Source: Cyathus striatus
Lineage: Eukaryota; Basidiomycota; Agaricomycetes; Agaricales; Nidulariaceae
Assembly (NCBI GenBank): GCA_025738555.1
Contig: JAOVFP010000003.1
Span: 3,038,001-3,102,000 of the forward strand
DNA length: 64,000 bases
Direction: 5' to 3'
Each line of letters opens with the position of its first letter. The stretch's first letter is position 1. Of the stretch, positions 29,703 through 53,802 are shown one piece after another. The notes under the pieces were generated by a model, which ran no database searches, was not told the DNA's origin, and saw only the letters and a program-made list of their open reading frames with translations. Position numbers and translations under genes: made by a program.

Positions 29703-32700
29703 ATGGCCTTTTCGAATGCAAGCAAATTTGTCATCAATTATCCTGTCATGATTGAGAAGTATATAAATACAGAGGTAACTTGTTTCAATGAAGCTGTATG
29801 TTCTAGTATAACAAAACATTAAATTCCAGGTCAATAATATGAAAGATGGGAAAATATCCCCAATTACTCAGACAACTCCAAGCACAACTGCAATGTTTAC
29901 TGGACAAGAAACATATCTTAATGCTTTATTGAGGCATTTTAAGTCTGAGGATCCAAATGACTTGAAAAGAAAGTACTTTCTTCTCTATGGAATGGGAGGA
30001 ATTGGTAAAACTCAAATCTGTCTCAAATTCATGGATGAAATGGATGACTAGTAAGTACAGTGCACTTTATTATAAATATGACATTAATTTCAGTCAGTTT
30101 TGACTATATATTCTGGATTGATAGCACTTCAGAAGACAGTGTTGTACAAAGCCTCAGAGATATTTATAAGATGCCTTTGGTTCCTCATTTCATGGAATTT
30201 TCTCCTCCTGTGGTTCTCAATTGGATATCTGCTCAGAAGTGCAAATGGCTGATGGTTTTTGACAATGCTGATGTAGCTCCAGAAGATGTTGAGAAATATT
30301 TCCCACCTAAGAATAAAGGAAATATTTTGATTACAAGCAGAAATCCAATATTGAGAAGGCTTACTACAGATGGACACTCCATGGAAGTGACTGAGATGAG
30401 TGAAGACACTGCAGCACAACTACTTCTAAAAGCTAGTAGGCTTCATGAGCAATCACACATACATCAGGATGTAGTAAAGGAGATTGTTTCAGAGCTTCAT
30501 GGTCTTCCATTAGCTATTGATCATGCAGGAGGATACATACTATCTGGAAGCTGTAATATAAGTGAATTCTTACATATATACAAGAGTCACAAAGAGAAAT
30601 TAATGAATAATGAAAAGTTTAAAGGTGCATCAAAGTATAACAAAACAGCTTATGGAACCTGGGAAATCTCTTATCAGAAGATAATTCAAATGTCTGAAGA
30701 TGTAACAAATAATGAAAGAGCAAGTGCAGCTAAATATGCAATTGTAATAATAAATATTTGTACCTTCTTACACCATCAAAGAATTCCTCATAGTATCTTT
30801 TGGAGGGCAGCGCAGAACTACCATTCAACAGTTGAGGAATGCTCAAATGAAAATATGACTTATCAACTCCAGAATCTGAACAAAGCATTATTCAACATTG
30901 ATGAATATGAACATTGGAATGAAATAGTGTTTAATGATGCAATATCTATGCTTATGTCTTTTTCATTAGTAAAGAAACATATGAATATGAGATCTCATAG
31001 TCTTCATCCACTAGTTCAAGATTGGTGCCAATTGAGATTATCAATATCAGATAGACAAAAGTGGGTTGAAAACACCAGGAGTATACTGGCAGCTTCAATA
31101 ACATTTGAAGATACCACAGAGGAGCGTATATATAGCCAAGAAATTATAATTCATATACTAAACATTCTACCAAATCATCATGAATATTATAACTATAAGA
31201 TACTATGGAAATTTGCAACAGTGTTAAACAAAACAGGCAAATATGAAGCTGAAGTGACTATATATAAAACTGTGGTAAAAGTAACAAAGCAAACTCTTGG
31301 TGAAGAGCATCCTGATACTCTTATAAGTATAAGTGATCTTGCAAACACTTACCAAAATCTTGGTAAATACACAGAGGCAGAGAAGCTAGAGAAACAAGTG
31401 CTGGAAATGAGAACAAGAATTCTTGGTGAAGAGCATCCTGATACTCTTGGGAGTATGGCCAATCTTGCAACCACTTATGAATGTCTTGGTAAATACATAG
31501 AGGCAGAGAAGCTAGGGAAGCAAGTACTGGAAATGTGTTCTAGAATTCTTGGTGAAGAGCATTCTGATACTCTTGGGAGTATGGACAATCTTGCAAATAT
31601 TTACCGAAATCTTGGTAAATACATGGAGGCAGAGAAGCTAGGTAAGCAAGTGCTGGAAATGAGTACTAGAATTCTAAGTGAAGAGCATCCTGATACTCTT
31701 AGGAGTATGGTCAATCTTGCAACCACTTATGAATGTCTTGGTAAATACATGGAAGCAGAGAAGCTAGGGAAGCAAGTACTGGAAATGTGTTCTAGAATTC
31801 TTGGTGAAGAGCATCCTCATACTCTTGGGAGTATGGGCAATCTTGCAAACACTTACCGAAATCTTGGTAAATACATGGAGGCAGAGAAGCTAGGTAAGCA
31901 AGTGCTGGAAATGAGTACTAGAATTCTTGGTGAAGAGCATCCTCACACTCTTATTGGCATGGCCAATCTTGCAATCAATTACCAAAATCTTGGTGAACAC
32001 ATGGAGGCAGAGAAGCTAGGGAAGCAAGTGCTGGAAGTCAGAATCAGAATTCTTGGTGAAGAGCATCATCATACTCTTATGAGTATGGGCAATCTTGCAA
32101 ACATCTATCAAAATCTTGGTAAATACATGGAAGCAGAGAAGCTAGAGAAGCAAGTGCTAGAAATGAGAACAAGAATTCTTGGTGAAGAACATTCTGATAC
32201 TCTTATAAGCATGGCCAATCTTGCAATCAATTACCAAAATCTTGGTAAATACATGGAAGCAGAGAAGCTAGAGAAGCAAGTGCTTGAAATGAGAACCAGA
32301 ATTCTTGGTGAAGAACATCCTCATACTCTTATGAGCATGGCCAATCTTGCAATCAATTACCAAAATCTTGGCAAATACATGGGGGCAGAGAAGCTAGAGA
32401 AGCAAGTGCTAGAAATGAGAACCAGAATTCTTGGTGAAGAGCATCATCATACTCTTATGAGCATGGGCAATCTTGCAATCACTTACCAAAATCTTGGTAA
32501 ATATATGGAGGCAGAGAAACTAGAGAAGCAAGTGCTGGAAATGAGAACAAGAATTCTTGGTGAAGAGTATCCTGATACTCTTGGGAGTATGGCCAATCTT
32601 GCAACCACTTATGAATGTCTTGGTAAATACATGGAGGCAGAGAAGCTAGGGAAGCAAGTACTGGAAATGTGTTCTAGAATTCTTGGTGAAGAGCACCCTG

Positions 32701-33575
32701 ATACTCTTATGAGCATGGGCAATCTTGCAAACACTTACCGAAATCTTGGTAAATACATGGAGGCAGAGAAGCTAGGGAAGCAAGTGCTGGAAATGAGTAC
32801 TAGAATTCTCAGTGAAGAGCATCCTCATACTCTTGGGAGTATGGCCAATCTTGCAACCACTTATGAATGTCTTGGTAAATACATGGAGGCAGAGAAGCTA
32901 GGTGAGCAAGTACTGGAAATGTGTTTTAGAATTCTTGGTGAAGAGCATCCTCATACTCTTGGAAGTATGGACAATCTTGCAAATATTTACCGAAATCTTG
33001 GTAAATACATGGAGGCAGAGAAGCTAGGGAAGCAAGTGCTGGAAATGAGTACTAGAATTCTCAGTGAAGAGCATCCTCATGCTCTTGAAGGTATGGCCAA
33101 TCTTGCAGATACTTACCAAAAACTTGGTAAATACATGGAAGCAGAGAAGCTAATAAAACATGTGCTGGAAATGAGAACTGGAATTCTTGGTGAAGAGCAT
33201 CCTCATACTCTTATGAGTATGAGCAATCTTGCAGCCACTTACCAAAGTATTGGTAAATACATGGAGGCAGAGAAACTAGAGAAGCAAGTACTGGAAATGA
33301 GAACCAGAATTCTTGGTGAAGAGCATCCTCATACTCTTATGAGCATGGCCAATCTTGCAATCACATACCAAAATCTTGGTAAATACATGGAAGCAGAGAA
33401 GCTAATAAAGCAAGTGCTTGAAATGAGAACCATAGTTCTTGGTGAAGAGCATCCTGATACTCTTGTGAGTATGGCTAATCTTAAAGCCAGACACTATAGA
33501 CCAGGAAAGTTAAGGAAGATAGCAAAGAAAATACAAATTGAATTTCTGAAAATGAAAGACAGAGTTATTTCTTGA
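29703..33575 (+). CDS. NLR-like NB-ARC protein with 18 TPR repeats
   Basis: Exons 29703-29774, 29830-30050 and 30098-33575 give 1,256 codons; the start at MAFSNASKFVINY is the most family-like, though ATG 29616 or 29652 is also in frame. It contains a P-loop GMGGIGKTQ (about residue 77), Walker B KWLMVFDNAD (about 146), ILITSRN (about 174) and GLPLAIDHAGG (about 231), i.e. a STAND-class NB-ARC ATPase. Then comes a helical region and, from about residue 470 to 1235, 18 repeats of 42 residues of the kinesin-light-chain-like TPR type, with GKYMEAEKLGKQVLEM and LGEEHPDTL in each. Such proteins act as intracellular non-self or death-signalling receptors in fungi; the ligand is unknown. No N-terminal effector domain is visible beyond a short leader. 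An upstream exon may be missing. Confidence 0.88.
31297..33480 (+). repeat. 126-bp tandem repeats encoding the TPR array
   Basis: Eighteen in-frame 126-bp units, very similar at DNA level. Several stretches alternate two subtypes (ECL-type and RNL-type), giving a 252-bp higher-order period, which indicates recent unequal exchange or conversion. Confidence 0.9.
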
Positions 33576-33741: not shown

Positions 33742-33790
33742 TCAGACCATATAATATAAATGAGACTAAGGCTACATAATGACCTGTGGC

Positions 33791-34110
33791 GAGCACTTTA
33801 TGGTCCCCCACACATTTATGTGGACTCCATGTGGACTCTGTGTAATTTTCTGGGAGCCTACATGGAGTCCACATAGACATTGGGAGACTTTATGTGGAGT
33901 GAATGTGGAGCTTACATGGAGTACAGAAGGATTGATACAGAGATAAGTCTGCATACAAACTCTACATGGACTCCATGTGGAATACAGGGAGTGTCAATGG
34001 ACTCTGGGTAAATTTTCCACATAAAATCCATGTATCCTCCATGTAAAGTCTACATAATCCTTGTGTACTCCATGTAATCCCTGTTCACTCCTTGTGCACC
34101 ACTAAAGTAA
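33791..34110. repeat. Left sub-terminal repeat array of the KDZ transposon
   Basis: Irregular copies of a roughly 12-bp word, TGTGGACTCCAT or its complement, partly arranged as short palindromes. Inverted partner array at about 45530-45915. Probable transposase-binding region, by analogy with other DNA transposons. Confidence 0.7.
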
Positions 34111-34169
34111 ACTATTCTTTACTTTATTATAGTAAAAATAATACAATTAACATAAAACATCCCTAACAG

Positions 34170-34232
34170 GAATTGAACTATGGACATAGTGGGTTAACTT
34201 ACCAAAGCATGGCACAACTTACCATTATGCCA
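34170..34232 (-). ncRNA. tRNA-like (SINE-like) module with strong A and B boxes
   Basis: On the minus strand, TGGCATAATGG (34232-34222) and GTTCAATTC (34178-34170) match the A- and B-box consensus without mismatch, 43 nt apart. The T stem does not pair, so it is probably the head of a SINE or a tRNA relic. Confidence 0.42.
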
Positions 34233-34484
34233 ATGCAGCTTATGTTTTGTATGGCACAAACTCCACAAGACCAGTAGGCACGCTCGGCAGTACCCAGCTG
34301 TCAGCAACGAAACATATGTGCTGTCAATGTTGACAATGAACATATCACTCTCCCTCTTCCCTCTTCCTCGCACCTCAACCCCTCCAGGTCTTCCCTCCTC
34401 ACTGCTCTCGAGCTTCACGCTCACAATGACGAATGACGAATGATGTTTCATTCTCTCCTTCCCTCCCTCCCATCCCCTCCCCTC

Positions 34485-35160
34485 GTTGTACAAGTGATGA
34501 AGACAGGTGCCATGCTGTCTTGCCCCTCCCTCACCTCCCTTGCCTCCCTTCATTGTGCAAGTAACAAAGACGGGCACCTTGCCATCTCCCTCCCCTCCCC
34601 TCCTCTCACCTCGTTGTGCATGTGATGAAGACAGGCAACGTGCCGTCTCGCACCTCCCTCACCTCGCCTCACCTCTCCTCGTCATGCAAGTGACGAAGAT
34701 GGGTGCCTTTCTGTCTCCCTCCCCTCCCCTCCTCTCACCTCATCATGCAAGTGAAAAAGACAGGTGCATTGCCATCTCCCTCCCCTCCCATCCTCTCACC
34801 TCATCATGCAAGTGACGAAGATGGGCGCCTTGCTGTCTCCCTCCCCTCCCCTCCTCTCACCTCATCGTGCAAGTGATGAAGACAGGCGCCTTGCCGTCTC
34901 CCTCCCCTCCCATCCTCTCACCTCATTGTGTAAGTGATGAAGACGGGCACCTTGCCATCTCCCTCCCCTCCCCTCCTCTCACCTTGTCATGCAAGTGACA
35001 ATCATGGGTGCCTTGCCATCTCCCTTGCCTTGCCGTCTCCTCTCGTCATGCAAGTGATGAAGACAGGAGCCTTGCCATCTCGCCCCTCCCTCCCCTCCCC
35101 TCCCCTCCCCTCTCCTTGTCATGCAAGTGACGAACACAGACGCCTTGCCATCTCACCCCT
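34485..35160. repeat. Minisatellite, about 61-bp unit, roughly 11 copies
   Basis: Tandem units contain GCAAGTGACGAAGA followed by a C/T-rich run (CTCCCTCCCCTCC) and CTCACCTC. Neighbouring copies differ by a few bases. Unusually for this half of the window, the units retain some CpGs. Open frames across it are repeat artefacts. Confidence 0.85.
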
Positions 35161-36426
35161 CCCTCCCCACTGTTTCCACTGTGTTGTCAGCACCATGTAG
35201 GACGTCTCCCCATGGCATGTGGAAGCCACACCAGTAGCAAGACACTCTCAAAGCATACATTGGATCTATGTAAGTGACATTCCCTGCTGAAGTCCCACTT
35301 GCTAACTCACGTCCCACAGCATCGTCTACACTCTGTAGACAGCCACATCGGCGCTGCGGTATTCAGCCCCCTCTCCTCCACCTCTGTGTCATAATGATGA
35401 TGACACCCTATCATCCACCCCCCTCTTCCCTCCTCCCTGTGACAAAAGAACAATGGCACCGCTGGCGGGAATGGCATCACTGCCACGTCATCCAGCCCTC
35501 CTCCTTCCTCTTCCATGTCAAGATGCAATGACACTGAACATTGTCAGCGCCATATCATCTGCCCCCACCCTCCCTCCTTCCCCATGTCATGATGACGATG
35601 GGGCCATGTCATCCAGCTCCCTCCAGCTCTCTTCTCCCCTGTGTTGCAATGATGGCATTGACGGTGTGTCGCCAGCCTTGTTTGCTGCCTGCTATGATGC
35701 CCCCGACCTCAACACTCTCCTACCTCCACCCCATCCTTGCCCACCTTGGTTCCCACAGCATCATCGGTTCTGCATGGGACCCTTCGCCCCACTGGCTTCA
35801 ACTGGTGGGCTTTGCTATTTCTGCCAAGAAGCGATCTATGTTAGATCGCTTCTCAGCAGAAATAGCAAAGCTTACCTATTGATCAGCCATGCCCATTTGA
35901 TGTGGCACATGGGCAACTGGCTGTTATTGCCTTGAATTGCTTCCCAGCACATGTCAATCAGCCATGCCCATTCAACTTGGCACATGGGTGACTGGCTGCC
36001 ATTCTGAATCACTTCCCAGCATATGTTAATCAGTCTTGCTCATTTGACATGGCTGATAGGTGATTCATGTATGGCCTTGTCCTTTTGAGTCAACTCTCTG
36101 CCTCGTCTTTTGTCTCAATGGTGGTTAGTGTAGGTGATGTATTAGGATAGTAGTTTGTTGTTTAGTATAGATATAGCATGAGTGATTTGTTGTTTAGCAT
36201 GAGATATTATTAGATGTATAAATAAGTTCAAGTTATATTTGGTGTGTGCCTTATGAATCACATGTGTTTTTCATGTGTGTGGGAGAAGAGTTAATTTTAG
36301 TACATCTGTGTACAGTATATATATTGCTCATGTGAACTATTTTACTTTCCTTCTCCCCCATCACTTGCCTAAGCACACAAATACTTTCAGCTTGAGTTTA
36401 CTTTTTGATAACTTTTTACAACTACA
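35161..36426. other. KDZ element interior without a supported gene
   Basis: 35.27-35.76 kb is C/T-rich low-complexity sequence. 35.88-36.1 kb has two similar copies of a phrase with GCCCATTTGA and CACATGGGCAACTGGCTG. The end, 36.1-36.43 kb, is AT-rich and probably the promoter and leader of the cargo gene that starts at 36427. Confidence 0.4.
35810..35870. repeat. Near-perfect 61-bp hairpin
   Basis: CTTTGCTATTTCTG pairs with CAGAAATAGCAAAG, and AGAAGCGATCT with AGATCGCTTCT, around a 5-base loop, with a small asymmetric bulge between the two stems. Confidence 0.85.
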
Positions 36427-37165
36427 ATGGCCCCCAAATCTTCCAAACAACAACAAAAATCCACAAAGTTAGATATTACTAAATTTCGCTTATTTTAAGA
36501 TTAATATTTCTAATTAACTATTTAGAAATTCTTCTAAGCCTGCTGTTGAAACTGACAAAGATACTATTAATAAACCAATTTCAAAACAACAAACAAAGTA
36601 AGATCTTTCATATGAATTATATACAAAGCTAATTATCATGTCATAGAAATTCCAACAAACCTTTGGTTGAGCCAGAGGAGTCTAAGTCTAAGATGAAAAA
36701 CCCAAGTAAGTATTGATATTGATAGTATAATTTTTTATTTATATCACTTTATATTTAGAAAAACAAGCACTCAGCGCATTCAAGAAGATATTAAGGAAGA
36801 TGCTAAAGGTGCCCCTGAGAAATTGACAAAAGCTGCAAAAATTCTTGAAATTGGAGGTGATGCTGTAGCCCCTCCACCTATTATTCAGGCCTCTGCTTCA
36901 ACTTTGCCACCTCGGCCCATGAGAGTTATTTCCTCTGATATTGCTGTATATTTCACTCCTCCACAAGATCAGGTGGACTCCGGGTAGAGTCCAGGACTCC
37001 AGGTGGACTCCAAGTGGACTCCAAGTGGACTCCAGGTGGACTCTACCTGGACTCTACCTGGACTCTACCTGGACTCTACCTGGACTCTACCTGGACTCTA
37101 CCTGGACTCTACCTGGACTCTACCTGGACTCTACCTGGACTCTACCTGGACTCCACTGAACTCAA

Positions 37166-37440
37166 GTGCCTAAGCTGTATGTAGACTCTATTGTTACATG
37201 TGTGTGAAAGTGTGACATGTTGAAAAATGTTGGAAAAAGCGTGACATGTGTGACAAGCGTGGGAAAAGTGTGACATGTTCGAAAAATGTCACATATCACA
37301 ATCATCACACTTGCCACACTTTTCGAACATGTCACACTTTTCCCACGCTTGTCACACATGTCACGCTTTTTCCAACATTTTTCAACATGTCACACTTTCA
37401 CACACATGTAACAATAGAGTCTACATGCAGCTTAGGCACC
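37166..37440. repeat. Long hairpin of GTGTGACATG-type sequence
   Basis: Two arms of about 110-120 bp are near-perfect complements of each other around a centre near 37.30 kb. They contain TTGGAAAAAGCGTGACATG-like and GACAAGCGTGGGAAAA-like words. A similar inverted block lies at 39.48-40.03 kb in the inner copy. Confidence 0.8.
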
Positions 37441-38167
37441 ACACTTTTTCTAACATTTTTCAATATGTCACACTTTTCCAACATTTTCCAACATGTCACA
37501 CTTTCACACATGTGTAACAAGTATGATGACTGTGGGAAACACATTACAACTATGACAATAGAGTCTAGATACAGCTTATACACTTGAGTTCAGTGGAGAC
37601 CAGGTAGAGTCCAGGTAGAGTCCATGTAGAGTCTAGGTAGAGTCCAATTGCTTGAGTCCAGGTAGAGTCCAGGTGGAGTCCAGGTAGAGTCTAGGTATAG
37701 TAAGGACTCTACCTAGACTCTACATGGACTACCTGGACTCTACTGAACTTGAATTTACTAAAGTCCAGGTAGAGTCCAGGTAGAGTCCATGTAGAGTCTA
37801 GGTAGAGTTCAATTGCTTGAGTTCAGGTAGAGTCCAGGTGGAGTCCAGGTAGAGTCTAGGTAGAGTAAGGACTCTACCTAGACTCTACATGGACTACCTG
37901 GACTCTACTGAACTTGAGTTTACTAAAGTCCAGGTAGAGTCCAGGTAGAGTCCAGATAGAGTCCAGGTAGAGTCCAGGTTCAGTCTAGATGCTTGAATTT
38001 ACTAAAGTCCAGGTAGAGTCCAGGTAGAATCCATGTAGAGTCCAGGTTCAGTCTAGGTACTTGAGTTTACTAAAGTCCAGGTAGAGTCCAGGTAGAATCC
38101 ATGTAGAGTCCAGGTTCAGTCTAGGTGCTTGAGTTTACTAAAGTCCAGGTAGAGTCCAGGTAGAGTT

Positions 38168-40342
38168 GAGGTCATTACACTCCTCCACGAAATCGTGTAG
38201 ACTCCATGTAGATTCCACCTGGACTCCAGGACTCTACCTGGACTCTACCTGGACTTCACTTGGACTCTACTTGGACTTCACCTGGACTTTACATATAGAA
38301 AATAATAGACTCTACATAGACTTCAGGTGGACTCCAGGTGTGAGCTGGACTGCACCTGGAGTCCACTGGACTCAAGCAACTGGACTCCAACTGGACTCCA
38401 CCTGGATTCTACCTGGACTCTACCTGGACTTAAGTAAATTCAAGCACCAAGACTGAACCTGGACTCTATCTGGACTCTACATGGACTCTACATGGACTCT
38501 ACCTGGACTTTAGTAGAATCAAGCACCTAAACTGAACCTGGACTCTACATGGACTCTACTTGGACTCTACCTGGACTCTACCTGGACTTTAGTAAACTCA
38601 AGCACCTAGACTGAACCTGGACTCTATCTGGACTCTACATGGACTCTACATGGACTCTACCTGGACTTTAGTAGAATCAAGCACCTAAACTGAACCTGGA
38701 CTCTACATGGACTCTACTTGGACTCTACCTGGACTCTACCTGGACTTTAGTAAACTCAAGCACCTAGACTGAACCTGGACTCTATCTGGACTCTACATGG
38801 ACTCTACATGGACTCTACCTGGACTTTAGTAGAATCAAGCACCTAAACTGAACCTGGACTCTACATGGACTCTACTTGGACTCTACCTGGACTCTACCTG
38901 GACTTTAGTAAACTCAAGCACCTAGACTGAACCTGGACTCTATCTGGACTCTACATGGACTCTACCTGGACTCTACCTGGACTTTAGTAAACTCAAGCAC
39001 CTAGACTGAACCTGGACTTTACCTGGACTCTACATGGACTCTACCTGGACTTTAGTAAACTCAAGCACCCAGACTGAACCTGGACTTTACCTGGACTCTA
39101 CCTGGACTCTACCTGGACTTTAGTAAACTCAAGCACCCAGACTGAACCTGGACTTTACCTGGACTCTACCTGGACTCTACCTGGACTTTAGTAAAATCAA
39201 GCACCCAGACTGAACCTGGAATCTACATGGAATCTACATGGACTCTACCTGGACTCTACCTGGACTCTACCTGAACTTTAGTAAACTCAAGCACCTAGAC
39301 TGAACCTGGACTCTACTTGGACTCCACCTGGACTTTATATAGAGAAAATTATAGACTCTACATGGACTCCAAGTGGACTTCAGGTAGAAGCTGGACTGCA
39401 CCCAGAGTCTGCTGGACTCAAGCAACAGACTCTACCTAGACTCTACCTGGTCTCCACTGAACTCAAGTGCCTAAGCTGTAAGTTGTAACATGTTTCCCAC
39501 AGTCATCATACTTGTCACACATGTGCGAAAGTGTGACATGTTGGAAAAAGTGTGGTGCTTAAGCTGTATGTAGACTCTATTGTCACATGTATGTGAAAGT
39601 GTGACATGTTGGAAAATGTTGGAAAAAGTGTGACATGTGTGACATGTTTAAAAAGTGTAGCAAGTGTGATGATTGTGATATGTGACATTTTTCGAATATG
39701 TCACACTTTTTCCCACGCTTGTCACACATGTCACGCTTTTTCCAACATTTTCCAACATGTCACACTTTTCCTACACTTCAAGTTTGATGACTGTAGGTGT
39801 TGGAAAATGTTTGAAAAAGTGTGACATGTGTGACAAGCGTGGGAAAAAGTGTGACATATTCGAAAAATGTCACATATCACAATCATCACACTTGCCACAC
39901 TTTTTAAACATGTCACACTTTTCCCACGCTTGTCACACATGTCACGCTTTTTCCAACATTTTCCAACATGTCACACTTTCACACACATGTGACAAGTTTG
40001 ACAACTAGGAAACATGTTACAACTGTGACAATAGAGTCCAGGTAAAGTCCAGGTAAAGTCTAGGTAGAGTCCACCTGGAGTCCACCTGGAGTCCACTTGG
40101 AGTCCAGGTAGAGTCTAGGTAGAGTCCAGGTAAAGTCCAGGTAGAGTCTAGGTAGAGTCCACCTGGAGTCCACTTGGAGTCCAGGTAGAGTCTAGGTAGA
40201 GTCCAGGTAAAGTCCAGGTAGAGTCTAGGTAGAGTCCACCTGGAGTCCACTTGGAGTCCACTTGGAGTCCATCTGGAGTCCACCTGGAGTCCTGGACTCT
40301 ACCCGGAGTTCACTTGATCTCGTGGAGGAGTGAAATATACAG
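38168..40342. mobile_element. Inner copy of the same satellite-like element, opposite orientation
   Basis: Starts GAGGTCATTACACTCCTCCA and ends with the complement of CTGTATATTTCACTCCTCCA, the reverse order of the outer element. The 8-bp direct repeat GTAGAGTT flanks it exactly (38160-38167 and 40343-40350). It is therefore a complete 2,175-bp copy that inserted into the body of the outer copy. It carries the same three sequence classes. Confidence 0.82.
38440..39310. repeat. Higher-order array of 79/158-bp units
   Basis: Each half unit has four to five CTACCTGGACTC-like 12-mers followed by a spacer with AAGCACCTA and ACTGAACC. Spacers at about 38594, 38752 and 38910 give a 158-bp higher-order period. 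Confidence 0.8.
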
Positions 40343-43095
40343 GTAGAGTTCAGGTAGAATCCATGTAGAATCCAGGTTCAGTCTAGGTGCTTGAGTTTAC
40401 TAAAGTCCAAGTAGAGTCCAGGTAGAGTTCATGTAGAGTTCAGGTTCAGTCTAGTTACTTGATTCTACTAAAGTCCAGGTAGAGTCCAGGTAGAGTCCAT
40501 GTAGAGTCCAGATTCAGTCTAGTTACTTGATTCTACTAAAGTCCAGGTAGAGTCCAGGTAGAGTCCATGTAGAGTCCAGGTTCAGTCTAGTTACTTGATT
40601 CTACTAAAGTCCAGGTAGAGTCCAGGTAGAGTCCATGTAGAGTCCAGGTTCAGTCTAGTTCCTTGATTCTACTAAAGCCCAGGTAGAGTCCAGGTAGAGT
40701 CCATGTAGAGTTCAGGTTCAGTCTAGTTACTTGGTTCTACTAAAGTCCAGGTAGAGTCCAGGTAGAGTCCAGGTAAAGTCCATGTAGAGTCCAGGTTCAG
40801 TCTAGGTGCTTGATTCTACTAAAGTCCAAGTAGAGTCCAGGTAGAGTCCAGGTAGAGTCCAGATAGAGTCCAGGTTCAGTCTAGGTGCTTGAATTTACTT
40901 AAGTCCAGGTAGAGTCCAGGTAGAATCCAGGTGGAGTCCAGGTGGAGTCCAGTTGCTTGAGTCCAGCTCACACCTGGAGTCCACCTGAACTCTATGTAGA
41001 GTCTATTATTTTCTATATGTAAAGTCCAGGTGAAGTCCAAGTAGAGTCCAAGTAGAGTCCAAGTGAAGTCCAAGTAGAGTCCAGGTAGAGTCCTGGAGTC
41101 CAGGTGGAATCTACATGGAGTCTACATGATTTCGTGGAGGAGTGTAATGACCTCTGATATTGAGGATGAGTTGAATACAGAACAAGCTGAGCTGATAGTA
41201 CAAAAGAACATGGAATCTGGGTCTAAAGCTGAAATTGGGACTAAAGCTGGATCTGAGTCTAAGGATGAAACTGGTTCTAAAGCTGAAACTGGGTCTAATA
41301 TTGAGCATGGGCTAGATGCTGATTTAGTTGACTTGAACAAACAGAAGGATGTTGAAGCAGAAATAGCAAACAAAATGCAAGTTGACACCCAGACTGGAAT
41401 AGGAAGGGTCAAATATGAATGCTGGTGAACTTGATGAGGAGACTGATAAAGAGGAATATGAAAAGAGAGCTGAGAGTGAAATAGATAATCATTCAGATGA
41501 AGAGAGTGAAAAAGAGAAAAGTGCAGAGAATGTAAATGAGAATGATACATTTGAGATGAAAAATAACAATAAAGATGGCAGTGAAGAGATGAGTAGTGAG
41601 CATGAAGAAGAAGATAATGATGAGAATGAGAATTTTGAGAATACTACTCCTAAGAAAGCAAATGTCAGTACAAAGAGATATCAAGATTCTACCCCAGAAA
41701 GTCATACAGGCAGCTCTATTAGTAGAGTTACTAAGAGTAGTCACAGATCTACATCTCATAACTCTGCTGCAACAGTTCCACCTGATAGCTCTTCTCCAAT
41801 TGAGCTTGAAGGTGCTTCTAGAACTCATGGTGGATTTTCTAGAGGAAGAGCTTTTGGAAATACATTTAACTCTGCTGATTTTAATACCAATGATGCATTG
41901 ATGCATATTGAGGAATCTGATTCAGGCCCTGTAATGGGAAGGGTTATAATATACTCTGATCGTTCTAAGCAAAGCCCACCATTTGTTGTTACACAGCCAC
42001 TTGGCACTAAGCTTGGAGATATTCTTCACAATATATGTGTAGAATATGAGTATACTGCTATTCAATGTGAGTTAGTTACAATATATAATATACTAATAAC
42101 TAATATTTGTATAGCTTGTTTTATCTATATTCAAGATGATAATATGTGGGTACTTAAGGGAAAATACCACAAAGCTTTGGAGAAAAATGAGGCTGTTCCT
42201 TGGATTAAAGATGAGAAGGGGAAGTATTCTATTTCTTTGTCAGCTGTAAGTTTCATATTATAACTTCTATAGCATTGCTTCTGAACTATATAACCAGGAG
42301 AGTATTTCTGAAATGGTTCCAGCACTGCCTGTAACTTTAGGTGGTGGTACTACATCTCAACACATGAAACCATCTGGATCAACTGTTGTGTCTTATCCAT
42401 TTGATTTAGACTCTGTTCAATACAAGATAGCTTCAGCATTCAATGTCTCTAAGGGACTCTGTGAAAGAAATGTAAAGAAAGATATTTGAGTTTCTTATCA
42501 GAAATACTTGGCTATTCATGACATTTTTGCAAAGTTTCCTGCAATGATAGCCAATAACATTTGGAAGGAGAAAAGACCTTCTAATAATGATATCATTGAG
42601 GTTTTTATGTCAAAGTCAACATACTATTTCTATTATAGTAACCCATTTTCTATGGTGCCCCAGATTCCTGAATTGGATAAATGGCTCAAAGGAGATTCAG
42701 ATGCACCACACACTGGTGAAGTTTGGGGTCATGGAGTAAAGCCCAGCTTGGACAACTTGAAGAAGTTGTTGAATAATATTAAGAGTGACCATTCCTCCAG
42801 AGCAAATGCAGAGAGCGAAGACAAGGAAGGATCCCACAAGAAAAAGAATGACAAAGGAAAAGGGAAGGCAAAAGGGAAGGAGAAGGAATTGGGAAAGGGA
42901 AAGGGCAAAGATAAAGAAGTGGAGGTTAAGTCTAAGGGGAAGAAGAAGAAAACTAACTTGTGAGTATTGTGCTTTATGTGAAATAGTTTTTGTATATACA
43001 TGAAACAAACAATTGATGTGTTGTTGATGTGTTGATGCTAATCTTTTCCAATTGATTTCTTAAATTATATAACTCTGGTCCTTCTACTGACAATT

Positions 43096-45406
43096 ATGAC
43101 TAACAGGAACATCTGGAAGATATTAAGCAATTTGATTATATTTTATATCTTCATTGGGTTATTTCCTGCAGTTTCAGCAATGCAAGATCCATTTCCATCA
43201 GTGAAATTTTCTATATTTGCACAATTTATTGAAGACAACTTCAGTTCAGAAATTAACTTGAATACAGTTATATTACTGCTATTAACATTAACTAACAATA
43301 CTGATTTATTAAACTTACATGCAAGACAACAAAATCCATCACTACAAGATGAACATGCACAAGTTCATACTAGTTGGATGAATGCATTAAGTAGAGCACT
43401 TTATGAAAAATTAAATGAAGATATTTACAAGTTGTTCACTTCAAATGAAAATACTGAAGTAGATGAAGAATCATTTATTATAGAAGTTGGATTGAAGATG
43501 AATGCATTTTCGAAGATATTGAAATTAGATCCATATGATGAGCATGGAAGATTTACTGAGTGGCTTAAACCAATATCTCACTCTGTCATTGAGCCAATCT
43601 TTTTAATTTGCCCTGCACGTGCAGAATGTAACAATTGCAATTGTTATAGAAGGTCATTAAGTCAGAAGTCTTGGTCTCGTGATATTCCACATGTTTCATT
43701 GATTAAAGACAGTAAACAATATCTGAATTCTCATGTTCTTAGTGGCAAATGTAGTTGTTGCAAAGCAATTTATTATGCAGACCATAAAAGTGTAATTAGT
43801 CCATTTAATTCTGCACAGCGGGACAGAATATACCTAAATCTGGCAAAGTACCTTAAAGTGGGAAAACAAGTTTGGGTTGATCATACATTTTCATCTGCTG
43901 TTGTAAATGCAATATACAGCTTTCATGCATCTGCATCTGCATTTTCAGAATTTTGGAATACAACATTTATTATAAATGAGGGAGAATCCAAGGCAATTTC
44001 ACGCTGGCAAGCTTGGCAAGCATTTGTACAGGAATCTATTCAACAAGTTGCCTTGAGTTCTAATACTGTTTTGAAAATAGCTGATGGAACAAAAATTGAT
44101 GATGTAACTAGACATGCCTTTACACATTTGGGAGAAGAAGGTATTGTACGAAGTGCAGAAAATCACCACTGCAGTGAATGTACACAGAGATACAAAGCTA
44201 ATGCTGATATAATTACACCTGATGATCCAGCTGCAGTAGCACAAGTAGATGAAAACCAAAATATACCTGCATTAACAGGTAGGGATGCAGATAGAGCAGC
44301 TAGAGATGCTGCTGAAGCAAGATATAATGCTCAAAATGCAATGAATGTTGATCCAAGTCCAAATGAGAGCTTAAATGAGAATTCAGCACTTGTAAATATG
44401 GTTGTTGTAGATGGCATTGTTATGGGACCTGCTCATTGTGCCATAGAGAACTGTACTCAAGATCTAGTCAATGCAAGACAAGGTGTTTTCTGTGCTATGC
44501 ATGAAGTACTACACAAAAATTTATGCAGAGTAAATGGCTGCAATAAAAATCTAGTTCAAAATACAAAGGCATGTGAAGAGCACCAGCAAAAGTGGCGATC
44601 ACATTTCACAAGATTTGGCAGACAGTCATTACTTGGTGTCCAAAGAATATTATGGCATACCCAGGAAGAACAACTCCCATGGTTACCTCAGATCAATAGA
44701 CGGGTTCAAGCACATGATATTATGAGCTCCAGGGAGGAAAAGAAAAAAAAGGACTACTTTTCTCCATCACGATTTTATTGTGTTGAAACAATCTGTGCAC
44801 CATGTGGTGTAGTCCTTGCTTGGGCAAAGTTTGATAAGTCTGAGTCTATAGATCAAATATTTGAATTTTTAGAAAAAGTATTTCCAACAGAGGATGTCCA
44901 GCCAAGTTATGTATGCATAGATAAAGCCTGTGTTCTTCTCAAAAGTGCAGCTACAAATGGGAAATGGATAGAGTGGAAAAATACAACACAATTTGTTGTT
45001 GACTCTTATCATTATATTAATCATAGGGTGACTGATTATATATGTCATAAATGGTGTAACCCAGCACCATTAAATGGATCTGCTCCAAATTTAGTTGTGG
45101 TTGAACATGATGTGAATGGTGTTCCACATTACAAACATGCATTTAATACACAAATTAGTTTTATATTCTTATAATTGTATAACTATTGCTAATTAGTAAC
45201 ATAAGGCATGTGAGCAATTAAATGCATGGATAGGTGGCTTCCAAACAATGTTGAACAGAATAACATTATCTAATTTTAACTGGACCATGCACACACTATT
45301 GTTTTTACACACACAAAGGGTTATAAAGAGGCAACAAATGAAAGATCAAGTGGTAGAAGAAGATGACAGTGAGGAAATAGGAATTGATATAGAGAGGGAT
45401 GACTAA
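43096..45406 (+). CDS. KDZ transposase with CxC5/CxC6-like cysteine clusters
   Basis: Exons 43096-45153 and 45206-45406 give 752 codons; the true start may be the in-frame ATG at 43180 (MQDPFPSVKFSIF). A first cysteine cluster (CNNCNCY, then CSCCKAIYY) at about residues 176-235 resembles the CxC5 domain. A second (CAIENCTQ, CAMHE, CRVNGCNKN, CEEHQQKW) at about 448-505 resembles CxC6. The catalytic core follows, with SYVCIDKAC, DSYHYINHR, WCNPAPLNGSAPN and, after the intron, CEQLNAWIGGF. These are candidate acidic catalytic positions of the KDZ family, which moves KDZ DNA transposons in fungi. Length is normal. The intron donor reads AT instead of GT (45154), which may block splicing and truncate the protein before the last catalytic Glu. 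The cargo gene lies 133 bp upstream. Confidence 0.82.
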
Positions 45407-45529
45407 TACACCAAGTGCTGCTAAGTAGTATAGGTTAGTACAATATTTATTGTTCATTTTCAATATATGTGTATGATGCTAGTTGTATCATTAAAATTCA
45501 TGTATAAGATAGACAACTCCATGTAAATT

Positions 45530-45915
45530 TTATGTGGACTCTATATAAGGCTTATACATATCAGACATCATGAACTGTTCATAAAGTTCACTAGATTCCA
45601 TGTGTACTCCATGTGGAGTATACATAAACCTCTACAATGTTCTTCACATATGAATGAGGAGTGTATGTGGACTTTTATTACTACATGTGGACTCCATGTG
45701 GGTGCAATGTGGAGTAAATATGAATTTTAATCTATGTGTAAAGTTCATATATACTCCATGTGGACTCCACATGGAACTATGTAGACTCCACAAGGAGTTT
45801 ACATGGAATTTATGGACTCAATGTGGACTTTACATGGACTTCACATGGACTCCATATAGAATTTATGGAGGCTACATGGAGTCCACATATACCTGTGGGG
45901 GAGCATAAATTACTG
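45530..45915. repeat. Right sub-terminal repeat array of the KDZ transposon
   Basis: CATGTGGACTCC-like 12-mers in both orientations, inverted counterpart of 33791-34110, ending at GAGCATAAATTACTG. Confidence 0.7.
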
Positions 45916-46004
45916 CCTGTGGCACATTTCCATGCATATACATCATGTGACATATTGCTAACACATTGCCAGCTCATCATTTCTTGCCCCACTACTTCAC
46001 TCCA

Positions 46005-46290
46005 CATGTGGAGGGCAGGAAAGGTGGGGAATGGCAAGCATGGAGGGCGGGAACAGGGGGAACAGCATGCATGGAGAGTGGGAACAGTGAGGAATGACAC
46101 ACATAGAGAGTGGGAACAGGGGGAATGATGCATGTGGAGGGTGGGAAAGGCAGGAAATGACAAGTATGGGGGGTGGGAACAGCAAGGTGATGACAAGCAC
46201 ACATAGCATGCTGGGAAGGGAGACAAAAATAGCAGAGGGGGAGAGTGTTGACAATGATGAGCAGGCAAGGTGGTGGGGCAGGGCAGAGGG
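46005..46290. repeat. G-rich minisatellite, about 36-45 bp irregular unit
   Basis: Repeated GGAGGGTGGGAACAGGG-like phrases alternating with GGAATGACA or GCATG words. Copies are uneven, and the open frames across it are not genes. Confidence 0.7.
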
Positions 46291-46320
46291 TGGGGTGCAA
46301 TATCACATCCCAACTGCAAT

Positions 46321-46478
46321 CCACAAATTGCCTTATATGGAAATCCAAAGGTCCCTATAACCCAACCAACTTAAAAGGTAGTGGGAATAAATTTTCTAAT
46401 TAGGTAGGTATTCCCACTACCTTTTAAGGTAGTTGGATTATAGGGACATCTGGATTTCCCTATAAGGTAATTTACAGG
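46321..46478. repeat. Inverted repeat, arms about 65 bp (repeat family X)
   Basis: Words such as CTACCTTTTAAGGTAGTTGG and TATAGGGACATCTGGATTTC appear in both orientations around an AT-rich centre near 46.40 kb. Another copy of the family is at 60250-60273 plus 61870-61915, split by a Tc1-type element. Confidence 0.8.
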
Positions 46479-48906
46479 TTTGTGAATGGGATCACAATCT
46501 GATTGGCTGGAGCCTTGTGACTATCCTGTGACTGCTGATGAATTTCACTTGTCTCAGATCCTTTTTCCCCCTGTCATCATCTTCTCATTTTTGTCTTTCT
46601 CACTAACTTTGCTGCTCATTCAATCCTGGCTGCCTGCTCTGTTTCCCTCAATCTTGATGTAGTTTTGATGTCACACCCACCACCATGTCCTCCCTTCTAT
46701 GTGCTCAACGATGGCAAGGGCAGTCTTGATGCTCCCATCTTTCATGTCCAATTCTTTGATGAGAGTGATGAACACCTGTGATCTCAACTGGTGCAACTGG
46801 AAGGGCATCATAACTCCAAATAGTGTTGGTATGCTTTAAACCACTAGTGGGACAACAGGTATTCCAAAGGGTGTAAGAGAGTGACACTATAGTTTATCAC
46901 ATTTCTTTCCCTGGATGGGAGAGAGATTCAGACTTGGAGAAGATGCAAGATTTACTATTCTTAGTGGGATTGTGTATGCTTCTATTCACCAAGACAATAT
47001 GTAACTTTAAATTGTGTATAAATATCCAATTGCTAATCAGGTGCTACAGTGTTCAGTCCCTTGTTCTTCAGTGCACAAATACACATTCCCACTGCAGATG
47101 ACATCAGTACACCTGGACATGTTGCAGGTCTCCTTCCCACCCATCACCTGCTAGCTATTCATGGTGGGCTACTCTTAGGCCTCTGCTGATCAGTGCTCTG
47201 CAATTACAACACTATGTGAGGGCATCATCAGCATTTCACTAGACCTCTATGTTGGCTATACTGGTATGAAGGAGAATGCTGGATAGGAGGCAGATCTAGG
47301 GATTGGGGTATTAGGGGGTAGGTGATATAAGTTGAAATGGAATGTAGGGGATGTAACAAATGTGGTGTATGAATGTGGCATATGATGTGATGGTGTGCTG
47401 GGAAATACAAATGGCATCATGTTATCAGCATAGCACATATGGCAATATATATATTCCTTCCAGTTTTTTATATCTTGGGAACACTTCTTCATTTGTCTGT
47501 TATTTTCCTTGTTGACTTACTTTACATATATAGGATGATGAAGAATTTATAATATACACATTAACCCTCTCAAAAAGGAATACTGCCACTCAATATGCTG
47601 CTTTAGTACATAAAGTTGTTCAAGAAGGGGAAGGCATTTTTGCTTTCATGAATAATTGGTATCATGAGCTGTGCATCCCTGAATTGTGGCAAAAAAAATT
47701 TTCTCCTGTAGTTTTGACTTTCAGAAAATTCTGTCTTACAGTTTTATTCATATTCTAAAAATAAACAATTCTGTAAGATGGATAAGAGATATACCAAAAT
47801 TTGAGTGGGAAATTTATCTTGTATAAAACCAGCAGCTCTCAGGCAAAATGCTCCATAAGGGCTTTCTTATAAATAGAACACTATTGTACACAATTCATTA
47901 TTTATTGTACTTGGGTAAATAAGCTTTGTTTAAAAAATTCCAAGATGGATACATGCCCTGAATGATACTTCAGTCAATAGGAGACATGAACAAATTTTAT
48001 GTCAGTCACACATCAGAAAGGGCAATGAACAGAACAATATTGAAACATTGGTGTCACACTGAAAATCCATGAACAATTGGTTGAAAGTATCCAGTACCCT
48101 AATAGTAAGATCTATTCAAATCATATTCACTTCTTGTTCAACTCTTCAGGATGTTGCCACTGGCCTCTTACCACCAAGTTACCTGAACAAACATTGTTTG
48201 AAACAGTCCACAATGACAACCTGGCAGTTTATGATATAAATGGACTTGACATCCATCCTAGTGAGTATTGACAATGTCTAGTCAATGCTACCATAGAAGT
48301 ACACTTTAAACTCACACTTTCCCCAGTTCCTCCTAAACACCTAGGAGACATTGCCTATGACATCTTCTCTGCCAACCTCATCCCAATGTGTTCCATTCTT
48401 CCACCTCCTTCCAAGACATATACCTAAATAACTTGCTAACTGGACTCTTCACATACAAATAATACACCCTTTTTACTTCATTTTATATTTACTTTTCCCT
48501 TGTATTTTGGTTCTAGATAGCAGCCTAATCTGAAACAGACCTATGACTACTGAAGCTGCATGCAATGCCATCCCATCCTTTTACTACACCCACAGCATTC
48601 TCCACCCTACTATAAATGATGTCAACAGATTTGAAATTCATTCTGCCATACCATCCTCCCACCACCTAACTTGCCTACCAACCTTCCTCCTCTCACCATA
48701 ACCTCCATCCAAACTCATTGTACCAAATATTTTGGATATTGTCATTATTCTCTTTAGTTTATATATATCTATATCTGTATCTCATACAAACTCACCCATC
48801 ATGTTTGATGAATAAACAGCATGGGAATTGCACCTCCCTTGTCCACATTACATGATTCACTCCAAATACTTGATCTACCTAGCAGTCATCAAATGTATTG
48901 ATATGT
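46479..48906. other. CpG-poor transposon debris, no gene supported
   Basis: 46.48-46.55 kb resembles sequence after 61.92 kb, so both may belong to one larger decayed repeat. Fragments at 47.53-47.70 and 48.08-48.27 kb have protein-like codon patterns but no recognisable motif or splice structure. Confidence 0.4.
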
Positions 48907-49180
48907 CAGCTTTTAAAATATACTTATTTTTCTATTATTATTTCATTTTATTCAAACTTCTATATTTAAAGCTGTACAAGGAACTACCCCATGAGTACAA
49001 GAGTTGAAATGAGGCCTGAGTTGCCAACTATAGTATTTTCTACAAAATATGCTACTAAGGGATGAGTACAAGGGCTGGGACTGAGGCCTGTGCTGCCAGC
49101 CAAAGTATCTCAATGATACAAACCAAGGGTACCAGAAGTATATCATATGGGTTGTCCATTTCCTGTACTCAATTAATATA

Positions 49181-49549
49181 CTGTAGTTACATGTATGGAA
49201 GAAATGGTCACGCATAATGGGGGCCTTGTTTCGTTGCTAAAATGGCATGCTGTCATGCATAATGGAGCCTCTGTTTCTAAGCAAAAAGTGTGACAGGCAG
49301 TTTTCATTTTTGAAAAACAAGGTAGAAATCCATGCTAAAGCTACTACTTACTATATATTATTACTATTAAATAATTGGTGGATTGAAACCTAACAAAGAG
49401 TGCAACAAGAGCCCAAAAGGTGAAATTTTAAGCTACTGATGTTGCCAAATTTCATATCCGTCACACACAAAATAGCTCTGTTGCTAAGCACAGATTGAAA
49501 TTTTCAATCACGCACTACCCCCCCGTTTCTTCCATACATGTAACTACAG
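49181..49549. mobile_element. TA-flanked MITE, 369 bp
   Basis: Inverted ends start CTGTAGTTACATGTATGGAA and match perfectly for about 24 bp. TA lies on both sides (49179-49180 and 49550-49551). It retains several CpGs that surrounding DNA lacks, so it is probably younger than its host sequence. Confidence 0.85.
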
Positions 49550-50639
49550 TACTACTCTTATTCATTAGTAGCTGTTACAATTATCATTATTATTCTACAA
49601 AGAAGCTACTGTATCACTCTTGTACACCTTGAATAGTGTTCTAGCATGAAGTCTGACACATCACATGCTGCTGTATATAACTGCAAAGCAAATTCTAATC
49701 AAGGTACCTATGCTGGTATCACTCAAATCTGGAGCTTTAATAGAATGTGACTCATACCCCCTATATGAGAGGCCAGATGGTTGCATGGATTTAAGGCTCC
49801 AACCCTATAGTATACAAACCATATATACAGTTATTTTTGTAAGTGTATATGTATAAACTCCAAATACCTATGTATACAGCAAATATACATTATATAGACA
49901 GTTGTATATAGTTCACACTTTTGCAACATAGGCATAATATAATTGGCTCTTCAATTGCATGTAACCTGATATCTTCAGTCTATGAGATAGCTGACCTGAC
50001 ACAGGTTGAATGGAACAAGGGCCAGGGCTCATGAGCACAAGCACTCAGAAGACAATAGCAACACAGTTACAGACTTACAAGACAAAGGTCTGTCTGATTA
50101 TATACTGAGTGTCAGTCAGCAATAAGTTATTGTTTAAATCCACAATTCACAATTCCAAGGGTGATATGATATTGTGGAGAGCACAAGAGGATGCTAGATT
50201 CTGACTTTGATGACTCAAATTGAAACTTGGAAGATAAATATACCAGTCCTGATGTGCAGATGGAAGGAATTCATCAAGACCTGAGATCAGTGGTACTGTC
50301 ATTTTTGCATGGAAAGATGAACAGTGGTTCATCTGACCATTTCATCACAAAGGTAAGTAGCTATACTGGTTTATAAGTCAACTTAAACTAATGAATCTAT
50401 ACAGATTGATCATGGGATGCAGCAACAACATCCAGATGCTGCTGAATGTGTTAAAGTAATGCTACCATTACTTTTTGATCATGGCCTGGACCAAGATATG
50501 CTTCTCAGATTTGATTCAGAACTAAAGAAGTATGAGCTACTACCACCTGTTTTCTTTTCAGATGGGAACACAAAAGACAAACATATCTTCAGTTCAAACA
50601 TATTGATTAATGTAAGATCTTTTTGATCAGTTATTAATG

Positions 50640-51116
50640 TGCTGATGTTGATACTACAGCTTGTATTGTGTCTACTCCACAGCCCTAGTGCCCTTCAGGC
50701 TTGAAAGGAGGGAAAGTTGGTTATTAATTCAAATACTGTGGCTAAGCACTGGGGATTAACCTCTGTTATGCCAGGATTCATCACATTTGTCACCATTCTG
50801 GTAAGTACTTATATGTCTCATATTGGATTAATTGCTTATAACTGCAAAGGTATGCTTTGGCTTAGCAGGTGATCCAGAGTTTGTATCAGTTGGAGAATCA
50901 GGTATTCATTATGTTGAGGACTTCAGAGCATGCAAGAAAATGTTATATAAGCTTTACAACAAACATAGTATTTGTGGGGTCATCTGGCAGTACAACAATG
51001 TTATTTTTCCTAACCAACCTTCCAATGGGGAATCTGCTTTGGAATGCAATGATACATGCTACAATAAATTGATGGACTGCATAGCTAATGAGTCAGAAGT
51101 TGAATTATTGATGTAA
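50640..51116 (+). pseudogene. DUF6698-like basidiomycete protein fragment
   Basis: Two exon-like parts (about 50690-50800 and 50851-51116) flank a 50-nt intron with good splice sites. They read NTVAKHWGLTSVMPGFITFV, then LAGDPEFVSVGESGIHY, VEDFRACKKMLYKLY and GVIWQYNNVIFPNQP. This spacing and the PGFI and GDPEF segments resemble DUF6698-type proteins common in Agaricomycetes and often found near transposons. A stop upstream and loss of the N-terminal part mark it as a relic. A further piece may lie at 50417-50623. Function of the family is unknown. Confidence 0.45.
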
Positions 51117-52237
51117 TCTAAGTAGTATGTCATTGTCTATCAAATCATTGACATAATATTCATGTTCCAATTCTGCCTTCACAATATAAACTCCTCAAAT
51201 AACTGATTCAAGGGGAATGAACATAGTGTCCTTGACCTCTTTTAGTTGATGAAATCCTAAATCATGATCCTTCTGATATGACTAACTTTTAGTAGTACTT
51301 TATTATGTCAGTAGTAGCACCACCAACATAAAATAGTTAATTACATTAGTTATATTTAGTACAAAGGGTATCTGGTTCACAATAATGAAATAGAACAATT
51401 TAAAGACTATGATTGCTTTCTAAGACTTGGTTTTAATAATTCAATTGCAGTACTAGTTCAAAACCTCAGAAAACCAATATTCAATTCAATTCAATAGCAC
51501 TCAGTACTTCAAATTCTACTAAAAACTTCAGATACTGATTTCAGAATGTTACTCTACTTTGAGAATGGAAGGACAGCTCATGCAGTGCTTGCTTTACTTA
51601 TTCTACTATCCCTAAGTTATATACTAAAATCCTACCTACTTTATTTGTAACAGTAGATAGTGTATAGTAGATGTAAATAGATTGCATGTGCTATTTCTAA
51701 GACTATCCATATGTTCCCTAAGGTGTGGGGAACCCTCCATATGGCAAATCATATGGATGCACCTCATTTCAGAGGTGCCTTGAATGCTGTGGCATTGGTA
51801 CTATTTTGGTACATGCACTAGGACACACACTTGTGTAGGTACATGCTTGGTTACAGGGATTCCCAGAGTTACCAGCTCTTTCTGACACACACATCAATAG
51901 TGTGTGATGGCATATGGACAATTTTTGGCTGTTTCATGCACCTCTGTCCATGAGGTTTTACACATGTAAACCATGCCACCATTCAGAATCTGACACAGGT
52001 GGTATGAGACCCATTTAGTAAGACTATGGATCTGAGCAATCCCAGCCTCTGTACCCTGATTGGGATTTTCTTTGGAGTCATGGCACATGACACATTGGAC
52101 TTCATGCTGGAACATCATTCAAGGCATACAAGAGTGGTGCAACAGCTTTTATCAGAGGATAATAATCAAATAAGTAGCTTAGTGGCTACTGTGAAATGAA
52201 TATAGCATATTTAATAAGTGCAGAAGGCCAGCAGCCC
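51117..52237. other. AT-rich, CpG-poor, no gene supported
   Basis: No coding signal that I can defend. The ORF-like stretch at 51894-52118 on the minus strand (CHDSKENPNQ) has no family features. Confidence 0.4.
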
Positions 52238-52854
52238 ATATAATATATCTTTTTATACCCTTAGTTTGTATCAAGGAGATAATTTAGCTGGCAGCACAGG
52301 TCTTAGCCCCAGCCCTTGTACTCTTCCCTTAGTAATGTATTTTATAGAAAATACTATAATTGGCAACTCAGGACCCATTCCAAGTCTTGTACTCATGGGG
52401 TGGCTTCTGCATGGATATAATATAGAAGTTTGAATAAAATGCAATAATACTTAAAAAATAAGTCTATTCTAAAAGCTGGTGTATTGCTTCCAATTTAGTT
52501 TTGTGGCAGTGTCAAAAAGTTGAATAAGAGCCAATGGATGCTTGTCAGCCCCCATCATAACTTCAAATAAAAGCAACAGTCACACATAAGTGATATTGTT
52601 GTCCATGATTAGCATGATACAGTCATAACAAGGATAACCATGGTAGATATCTTTGCAGTGCAAGATCCTTTGCGATACAGTCCAGTCTTCTTCTGAGACA
52701 TAGCTAATATCAACTTTGAAAAATTGTTGAATCTGAATATGTAAAGATAAGATTAAAACAAGGACTTTAATAATAATTGTCATACATTTCCATTATTTCC
52801 TAACACTATTGTCCATTTTGAATTTGAGTAGATTTCAGATAGATAGCTATTTAG

Positions 52855-53794
52855 GAGCTCTTTACACTTAGCCAGGTGTTCTGTACAGATCCGTGCAGAA
52901 TCTGTATGGAATTTTCAGAATCTGTGTGGAATCTGCACAGATTTTTTTCTTTTTGGCAGAGGTTTTTTTGGGTCTGTACAGATTCTGCACAGATTCTGCA
53001 CAGAATCAAAAATTCCATGTGAATTCTGCAGAATTCCGCATTACAGACCTGAAAAATTCTGTACAGAATCTTATTATACTTATTTTCTTATGGAAAATTA
53101 GAATAGAAAATTGTGTGATACTAAGCACTAAGTGTGACACTCTGCAATAAGTGTGACACTAAGGTTTAAGTGTGACACTATACATTGATTGTGACACTAA
53201 GGGTTGAGTGTGACACTAAGTGTTGAGTGTGACACTAAGTGTTGAGTGTGACACTAAGCATTGAGCATGACACTCTGCATTAAGTGTGACACTAAGGGTT
53301 GAGTGTGACACTAAGGTGTTGAGTGTGACACTATGCATTGAGTGTGACACTATGCATTAAGCATGACACTATACATTAAGTGTGATACTATGCATTAAGC
53401 ATGAAACTATACATTAAGCATGACACTAAGTGTTGAGTGTGACACTATGCATTGAGTGTGATACTATACATTAAGCATGACACTATGCATTGAGCATAAT
53501 ACTATATATTGAGAGTATCACAGATTTTGTGTAGTGTCACACTTGACACCTGTGATAAGGCAGCAATGCGTGAATCCACACAGAATCCATGCAGAATATG
53601 TATGGAATCCATATAGAATAATCACCTCTAATAATAATAATAGCCACTATATAAATTCTGTATGGTATCTATACAGGTCTGTACGGGTCTGTATGGATCT
53701 GCATGGAATCTGCATGGATCCATACAGAATTTTCTGATTCCGTGCAGATTCTGTACAGATCTGTACAGACCTCTTGGGGGAGTGTAAATTACTG
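52855..53794. mobile_element. Small non-autonomous element with KDZ-type ends, 940 bp
   Basis: Left end GAGCTCTTTACACTTAGCCA, right end complementary to CAGTAATTTACACTCCCCCA, with the 8-bp TSD CTATTTAG (52847-52854 and 53795-53802). Sub-terminal arrays are built on a third 12-bp word, CTGTACAGATCT or CTGCACAGATTC. The centre is a minisatellite of about 20 bp. No coding capacity. Confidence 0.8.
53104..53530 (+). repeat. Minisatellite, about 20-bp unit, roughly 20 copies
   Basis: Units read GTGTGACACTAAGTGTTGA with variants (TATGCATTA, CATGACACT). It fills the middle of the 52855-53794 element. There are no unique spacers, so it is not a CRISPR array. Confidence 0.88.
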
Positions 53795-53802
53795 CTATTT
53801 AG

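Follow-up and report, generated by a model that had tools for sequence, protein, structure and literature searches.

Near-shared terminal tips and clade-specific subterminal arrays of ~11-bp units in KDZ-type transposons of Cyathus striatus

Among the transposons of Cyathus striatus are elements with KDZ-type (Kyakuja-Dileera-Zisupton) transposases, whose ends we analysed in a 64-kb stretch of contig JAOVFP010000003.1 (positions 3,038,001 to 3,102,000; hereafter the window) and in the surrounding genome (107.45 Mb in 24 contigs). The window holds a 12.1-kb transposon and three shorter elements without a transposase gene. Our analysis suggests that these KDZ-type transposons and their non-autonomous satellites probably have two-part ends, comprising a shared tip at which cleavage would occur and a family-specific array to which a protein would bind. 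We offer only tentatively a wider form of this proposal, in which six or more co-resident KDZ-type families with near-interchangeable tips would be kept apart by an evolving array "address" of ~11-bp units, its reader being either the product of a fast-diverging upstream frame (ORF1) or the CxC domain of the transposase, so that a CACTA-like end code may have arisen in a second superfamily.

The four elements lie where the first-pass annotation of the window had placed them, and all four are bordered by an exact 8-bp target-site duplication (TSD). Their features are as follows.

33783-33790 and 45916-45923: TSD of the clade A element, CCTGTGGC
33791..45915, + strand: KDZ-type element of clade A with exact TSD and tips, 12,125 bp long when the nested 4,211-bp satellite is counted
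33791..33809, + strand: left tip of the A element, GAGCACTTTATGGTCCCCC, with 3 mismatches to the tip pattern of the first-pass annotation
33810..34110, no strand: left subterminal array of the A element, imperfect 11-bp unit CATGTGGACTC (inner limit approximate, by reading)
36430..42963, + strand: ORF1, several exons (limits by reading), split by the outer satellite at 36944
~42490-42820: conserved C-terminal domain of ORF1
36936-36943 and 41155-41162: TSD of the outer satellite-like element, TGATATTG
36944..41154, - strand: outer satellite-like element, without transposase, clade B type
37004..37153, + strand: array of the 11-bp unit TGGACTCTACC inside the outer element, 13.6 copies, 97% matches
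38160-38167 and 40343-40350: TSD of the inner satellite-like element, GTAGAGTT
38168..40342, + strand: inner satellite-like element, of the same family as the outer one, in opposite orientation
43042..45174, + strand: main exon of the transposase, an open frame of 710 codons that encodes CxC5 and CxC6
~45205-45404: probable further short exon of the transposase, from reading of the DNA
45520..45896, no strand: right subterminal array of the A element, 11-bp unit CATGTGGACTC in both orientations (inner limit approximate, by reading)
45897..45915, - strand: right tip of the A element, CAGTAATTTATGCTCCCCC
52847-52854 and 53795-53802: TSD of the 940-bp element, CTATTTAG
52855..53794, + strand: 940-bp element, without transposase, clade S type
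53113..53494, + strand: 19-bp satellite within the 940-bp element

Insertion of the outer satellite-like element is proven, because a clade A copy (L047) lacks it and represents its empty site: when its two flanks in the window are fused at one copy of TGATATTG, they align with L047 over 200 bases without a gap and with 4 mismatches (score 192). The left end of the outer element matches the right end of the inner one, and its right end matches the inner left end; the two are one family in opposite orientation, and the window therefore contains three families. The satellite family is nested both in its own kind (inner within outer) and, at 36944-41154, in ORF1 of the A element, and such self-nesting may explain its satellite-like growth.

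The genome contains at least six clades of KDZ-type (CxC5/CxC6) transposases. One search of the genome returned at least 85 matches (65 of 925 candidates scored), one with the CxC5 family at least 150 (150 of 471 scored) and one with an S-clade query at least 72 (66 of 1008 scored). A midpoint-rooted tree was built from the C-terminal part of 35 of 42 matching loci, the other seven being too short. Its topology is ((S,E),(A,(B,(C,D)))), with ultrafast bootstrap support of 100 for each clade and of 90/87 for the fork joining C and D; the transposase of the 12.1-kb element falls in clade A, and the sample of clade E is small (five ends, four tree rows). Mean identity among five clades is 62% in the catalytic part. 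A protein from each of the clades A, B, C, D and S was scanned against Pfam: CxC5 and CxC6 exceeded the cut-off in all five, and none matched the KDZ catalytic model. Database homologues of the window transposase numbered 563 at E<=0.001 among 7995 scored, and those named, among the matches listed (120 of 563), belong to mushroom-forming fungi (Pleurotus, Amanita, Flammula, Infundibulicybe and Rickenella). Across 40 sequences D599 is invariant and D626 nearly so, while the catalytic E would fall in the later exon, known by reading only. Clade C is represented by a complete element of 8,185 bp with an exact 8-bp TSD (L040; 1/1).

The content of the subterminal arrays sorts with these clades, as the first-pass annotation had expected. 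A tip was recognisable in 49 of 59 right-end regions and not in the other 10; once two repeat occurrences of the same insertion had been set aside, 47 ends remained. Of the 17 S ends, 14 were assigned to their clade by identity, whereas similarity was used for four ends outside the tree, three of A and one of E. With array words chosen from the data in which they were counted, the word of the own clade was the sole best in 41 of 47 right ends (A 13/13, B 4/4, C 4/4, D 4/4, S 14/17, E 2/5); three E ends were ties at low count, three S ends lacked their own word, and a foreign word was best in none. A comparison free of word choice, in which the nearest neighbour of each end was found from its 6-mers with the first 66 bp left out, gave the right clade in 47 of 47 cases.

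Each of the window elements likewise aligns with a single clade. The right end of the window A element aligns with 12 other clade A ends at a median score of 523 (other clades <=49), the 940-bp right end with clade S at a maximum of 305 and a median of 174 (other clades <=51), and the CTG ends of the outer and inner satellites with clade B at maxima of 229 and 220 (other clades <=59 and <=56, respectively). To judge from these alignments, the 940-bp element is a partner of clade S, the satellites are partners of clade B, and the big element belongs to clade A. The 12.1-kb element was also considered as the partner of the other three and was ruled out, those aligning to clades S and B. When S-array ends were sampled (right ends L039 and L070-L077), tips and exact 8-bp TSDs were found at 7 of 10, in line with the expectation that most copies would have them; these seven are complete S-type copies of 927-2463 bp. 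For the other three, the stretch retrieved did not contain a left tip.

Unlike the arrays, the tips are nearly common property. The strict 19-bp pattern SAGNNNTTTACACTCCCCC, which had been proposed as one terminal code, fits exactly in one of the eight window tips and is off by 2-4 positions in the other seven, so that a single code fitting all tips strictly was ruled out; even so, a window scan allowing up to 3 mismatches found six 19-mers only, all among the eight tips. Exact SAGNNNTTTACACTCCCCC occurs 749 times genome-wide (reversed control 0). Exact CAGTAATTTACACTCCCCC tips number 456, of which 426 lead into an S array start (reversed control 0), and counts restricted to exact matches gave 19 A-type right ends and 50 satellite-type CTG ends. 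Tips of A, S and E differ at 1-2 of 19 positions, although their transposases are only 51-54% identical, and A and S differ at 1 of 19 in the CG form; the A tip differs at 5-7 positions from those of its closer relatives B, C and D. Tip distance does not track transposase distance among the six clades (r=-0.20; 488 of 720 permutations as high). In seven genome copies a tip of the YG form is followed by the start of an S-type array; in two of these, L079 and L080, the tip before the S-like arrays is CAGTAATTTACGCTCCCCC, the same sequence as the A tip in its CG form. A and S ends can thus have an identical 19-bp tip yet different arrays.

Some ends are compound. Three clade S right ends (L043, L055 and L058) have two S tips each, in the same orientation and 190-252 bp apart; the 8-bp flank of the inner tip, GAAAATTA, is common to all three, which places the second end inside the element. 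Families are also nested at L074, where an S right end is followed, 143 bp further inside, by an E-like one with the array start CCCCAGTCCGTCCGG.

Periodic arrays lie just inside both tips of each window element. Their unit had been given as 12 bp; Tandem Repeats Finder and lag analysis ruled this out and gave 11 bp. The arrays had also been called dense, which is apt for CTACCTGGACTC (37 exact copies in the window) and not for TGTGGACTCCAT (4) and CTGTACAGATCT (2), whose arrays are imperfect. In the A element, lag-11 identity is 0.48 on the left, with 3 word matches (<=1 mismatch) per 300 bp, and 0.51 on the right, with 5. Lag 11 ranks first or close to first in each of the six clades, though the word changes, and lag-11 identity exceeds that of shuffles at z>3 in 39 of 47 ends. 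Steps in the S family are mostly 10, followed by 21 and 11. An expectation-maximisation motif search for the array words merged overlapping registers and gave no usable result.

CpG content is low in these ends, with observed/expected ratios of 0.00-0.26 compared with 0.50 for the window. At positions 11-12 of the A right tip, 13 clade A copies have CG (5), TG (5) or CA (3), and many differences within an aligned S pair are, by eye, CG versus TG or CA. The A and S words appear to have undergone partial CpG decay, which may reflect methylation.

Elsewhere in the window, at 55875-58097, long inverted arms (~55875-56215 and ~57757-58097, centre 56986) contain 11-bp arrays of a GAAATCAATGA-like word that differs from those of the other families (lag-11 identity 0.66). 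This is possibly a further array-bearing element. Its exact 8-bp repeat ATTATAAT is palindromic and lies within the arms, and therefore is not a TSD.

With regard to the protein that would read the arrays, the CxC region of the transposase had been put forward, and it remains one candidate, though not the sole one. Weak homologues of ORF1 (25-49% identity) precede the transposase in clades B, C and D, and also in S and E, where a single locus each shows them. ORF1 gave no convincing Pfam match, and for a clade D piece none of 354 database candidates reached E<=0.001. By position and by its divergence, which appears greater than that of the transposase, ORF1 is at least as good a candidate as the CxC region; it may be a separate gene or an N-terminal extension.

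The mechanism we favour has two parts. A slowly changing tip of ~19 bp, GAG... at one end and CAG/CTG... at the other, would be the cleavage site of a DDE-type transposase and yield the 8-bp TSDs. Inside it, a family-specific array of ~11-bp units, each about one helical turn, would be bound by an element-encoded protein, be it the zinc clusters of the transposase (CxC5/CxC6), its N-terminal domain or the ORF1 protein; the bound reader would recruit the transposase to the ends of its own family and might insulate the families from one another. This reading gains support because En/Spm sets a precedent: TNPA recognises the subterminal repeats, and TNPD is proposed at the 13-bp terminal inverted repeat (TIR) (PMC2613891).

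A rather unlikely alternative is that the arrays are neutral satellites, grown by slippage and unequal exchange, whose words were co-inherited with the transposase, recognition residing in the tip and its immediate neighbours. Amplified arrays do fill much of the outer and inner elements, and the 19-bp satellite varies among S copies. Several further results count against two-part recognition, of which the expectation from linked descent, the k-mer correlations and the three S ends nearly without arrays also favour neutrality. Sorting by clade is equally expected from linked descent. Word distance correlated with transposase distance for hand-picked words (r=0.60; 11 of 720 permutations), but weakly for 5-, 6- and 7-mers in Mantel tests (r=0.10, 0.30 and 0.41; 250, 92 and 46 of 720); the results differ by measure. 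Clade specificity is firm, whereas graded co-evolution is not. The eight ends of 47 with lag-11 z<=3 are all S, and three S ends (L063-L065) are nearly without arrays, no S word being found within 1 mismatch in 450 bp. The units keep their local spacing, but the idea that they stand in one phase to the tip was ruled out. A left TSD copy was found at none of three clade D loci within the fetched 10 kb, and an AlphaFold model of the transposase (mean predicted local distance difference test score 71.8) had no Foldseek match at E<=0.001. Neutral growth fits less well with the presence of arrays at either end in each of the three window families and at the right ends of all six clades, with a lag of ~11 bp that persists while the sequence changes, with a first unit whose median distance to the tip is 37 bp in E and 4-22 bp in the other five clades, and with short copies that, without a transposase, have the tips and arrays of one clade. 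Of the two-part recognition first proposed, the layout and the clade-sorted arrays thus stand, while linked descent also fits and the graded part of the co-variation is weak and measure-dependent.

It is improbable that the arrays are mainly regulatory, CpG-bearing and methylation-prone sequences that drive or silence element transcription without discriminating between families. The low CpG ratio of the ends and the CG, TG and CA states at one tip site of the 13 clade A copies are in keeping with such a role, as are the prevalence of TGA among the stops of decayed transposase copies and the fact that TNPA also regulates En/Spm. However, the B, C and D words contain no CpG, short elements keep their arrays without a transposase gene, and the arrays are present at both ends.

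Two neighbouring features complete the window. A fragment at 60700-61146 (- strand) matches the DDE_3 endonuclease (E 3e-10) and is presumably a Tc1/mariner-like relic. A 126-bp tandem repeat at 31295-33482 (17.4 copies) resembles, by our reading, tetratricopeptide (TPR) coding repeats.

How co-resident transposon families avoid cross-mobilisation is an open question, for which at least six KDZ-type clades, some of them with near-identical or identical tips yet different arrays, together with clade-matched non-autonomous partners, constitute a natural swap experiment. If the two-part reading is true, the end layout of CACTA elements extends to a second superfamily, and hundreds of copies (426 S ends) have the address of one family. 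The first-pass annotation knew of no description of such a system; in general this was wrong, since the principle has been published for CACTA, where conserved terminal repeats are combined with family-varying subterminal motifs and a parallel diversity of DNA-binding proteins has been proposed (PMC2613891, PMC8978399). In Jozin elements, for example, 12-bp words differ between the elements of different species (PMC8978399). The pattern seen here is real and ordinary in principle; for KDZ, searches of open-access literature gave no description of such family-specific subterminal arrays. A role in recognition would follow the CACTA model.

Compared with known systems, the window elements resemble CACTA/En-Spm (En/Spm, Tam1, Tgm and Jozin) in the conserved short terminus, in subterminal arrays of 10-20-bp units, direct and inverted, with differing words, in a putative second element-encoded protein and in non-autonomous partners. 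In contrast, CACTA elements have 3-bp TSDs, CACTA tips and a tnp2-type transposase, whereas here we find 8-bp TSDs, GAG/CAG/CTG tips and CxC5/CxC6; none of the five scanned proteins matched a CACTA-type transposase family or a hAT domain in Pfam. An 8-bp TSD is usual for hAT elements such as Hermes and Kat1 (PMC12730594), and in Kat1 subterminal repeats are reported to matter for endonuclease activity (PMC4763223); Kat1, however, has six hexamer copies rather than long 11-bp arrays. The likeness to KDZ lies in CxC5/CxC6, named by Pfam as KDZ-transposase-associated, and in the 8-bp TSDs shared with Zisupton and Dileera (PMC12730594) and with Cryptococcus KDZ1 (PMC12810828). The KDZ elements described in these two papers differ in that they have TIRs, 241 bp long in KDZ1, or lack them, as does Kyakuja with its 7-bp TSD; what is reported of them includes no subterminal arrays, and the word "subterminal" occurs in neither paper (PMC12730594, PMC12810828). 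The window elements work like CACTA/En-Spm, yet by TSD, tips and protein they are not members of that superfamily.

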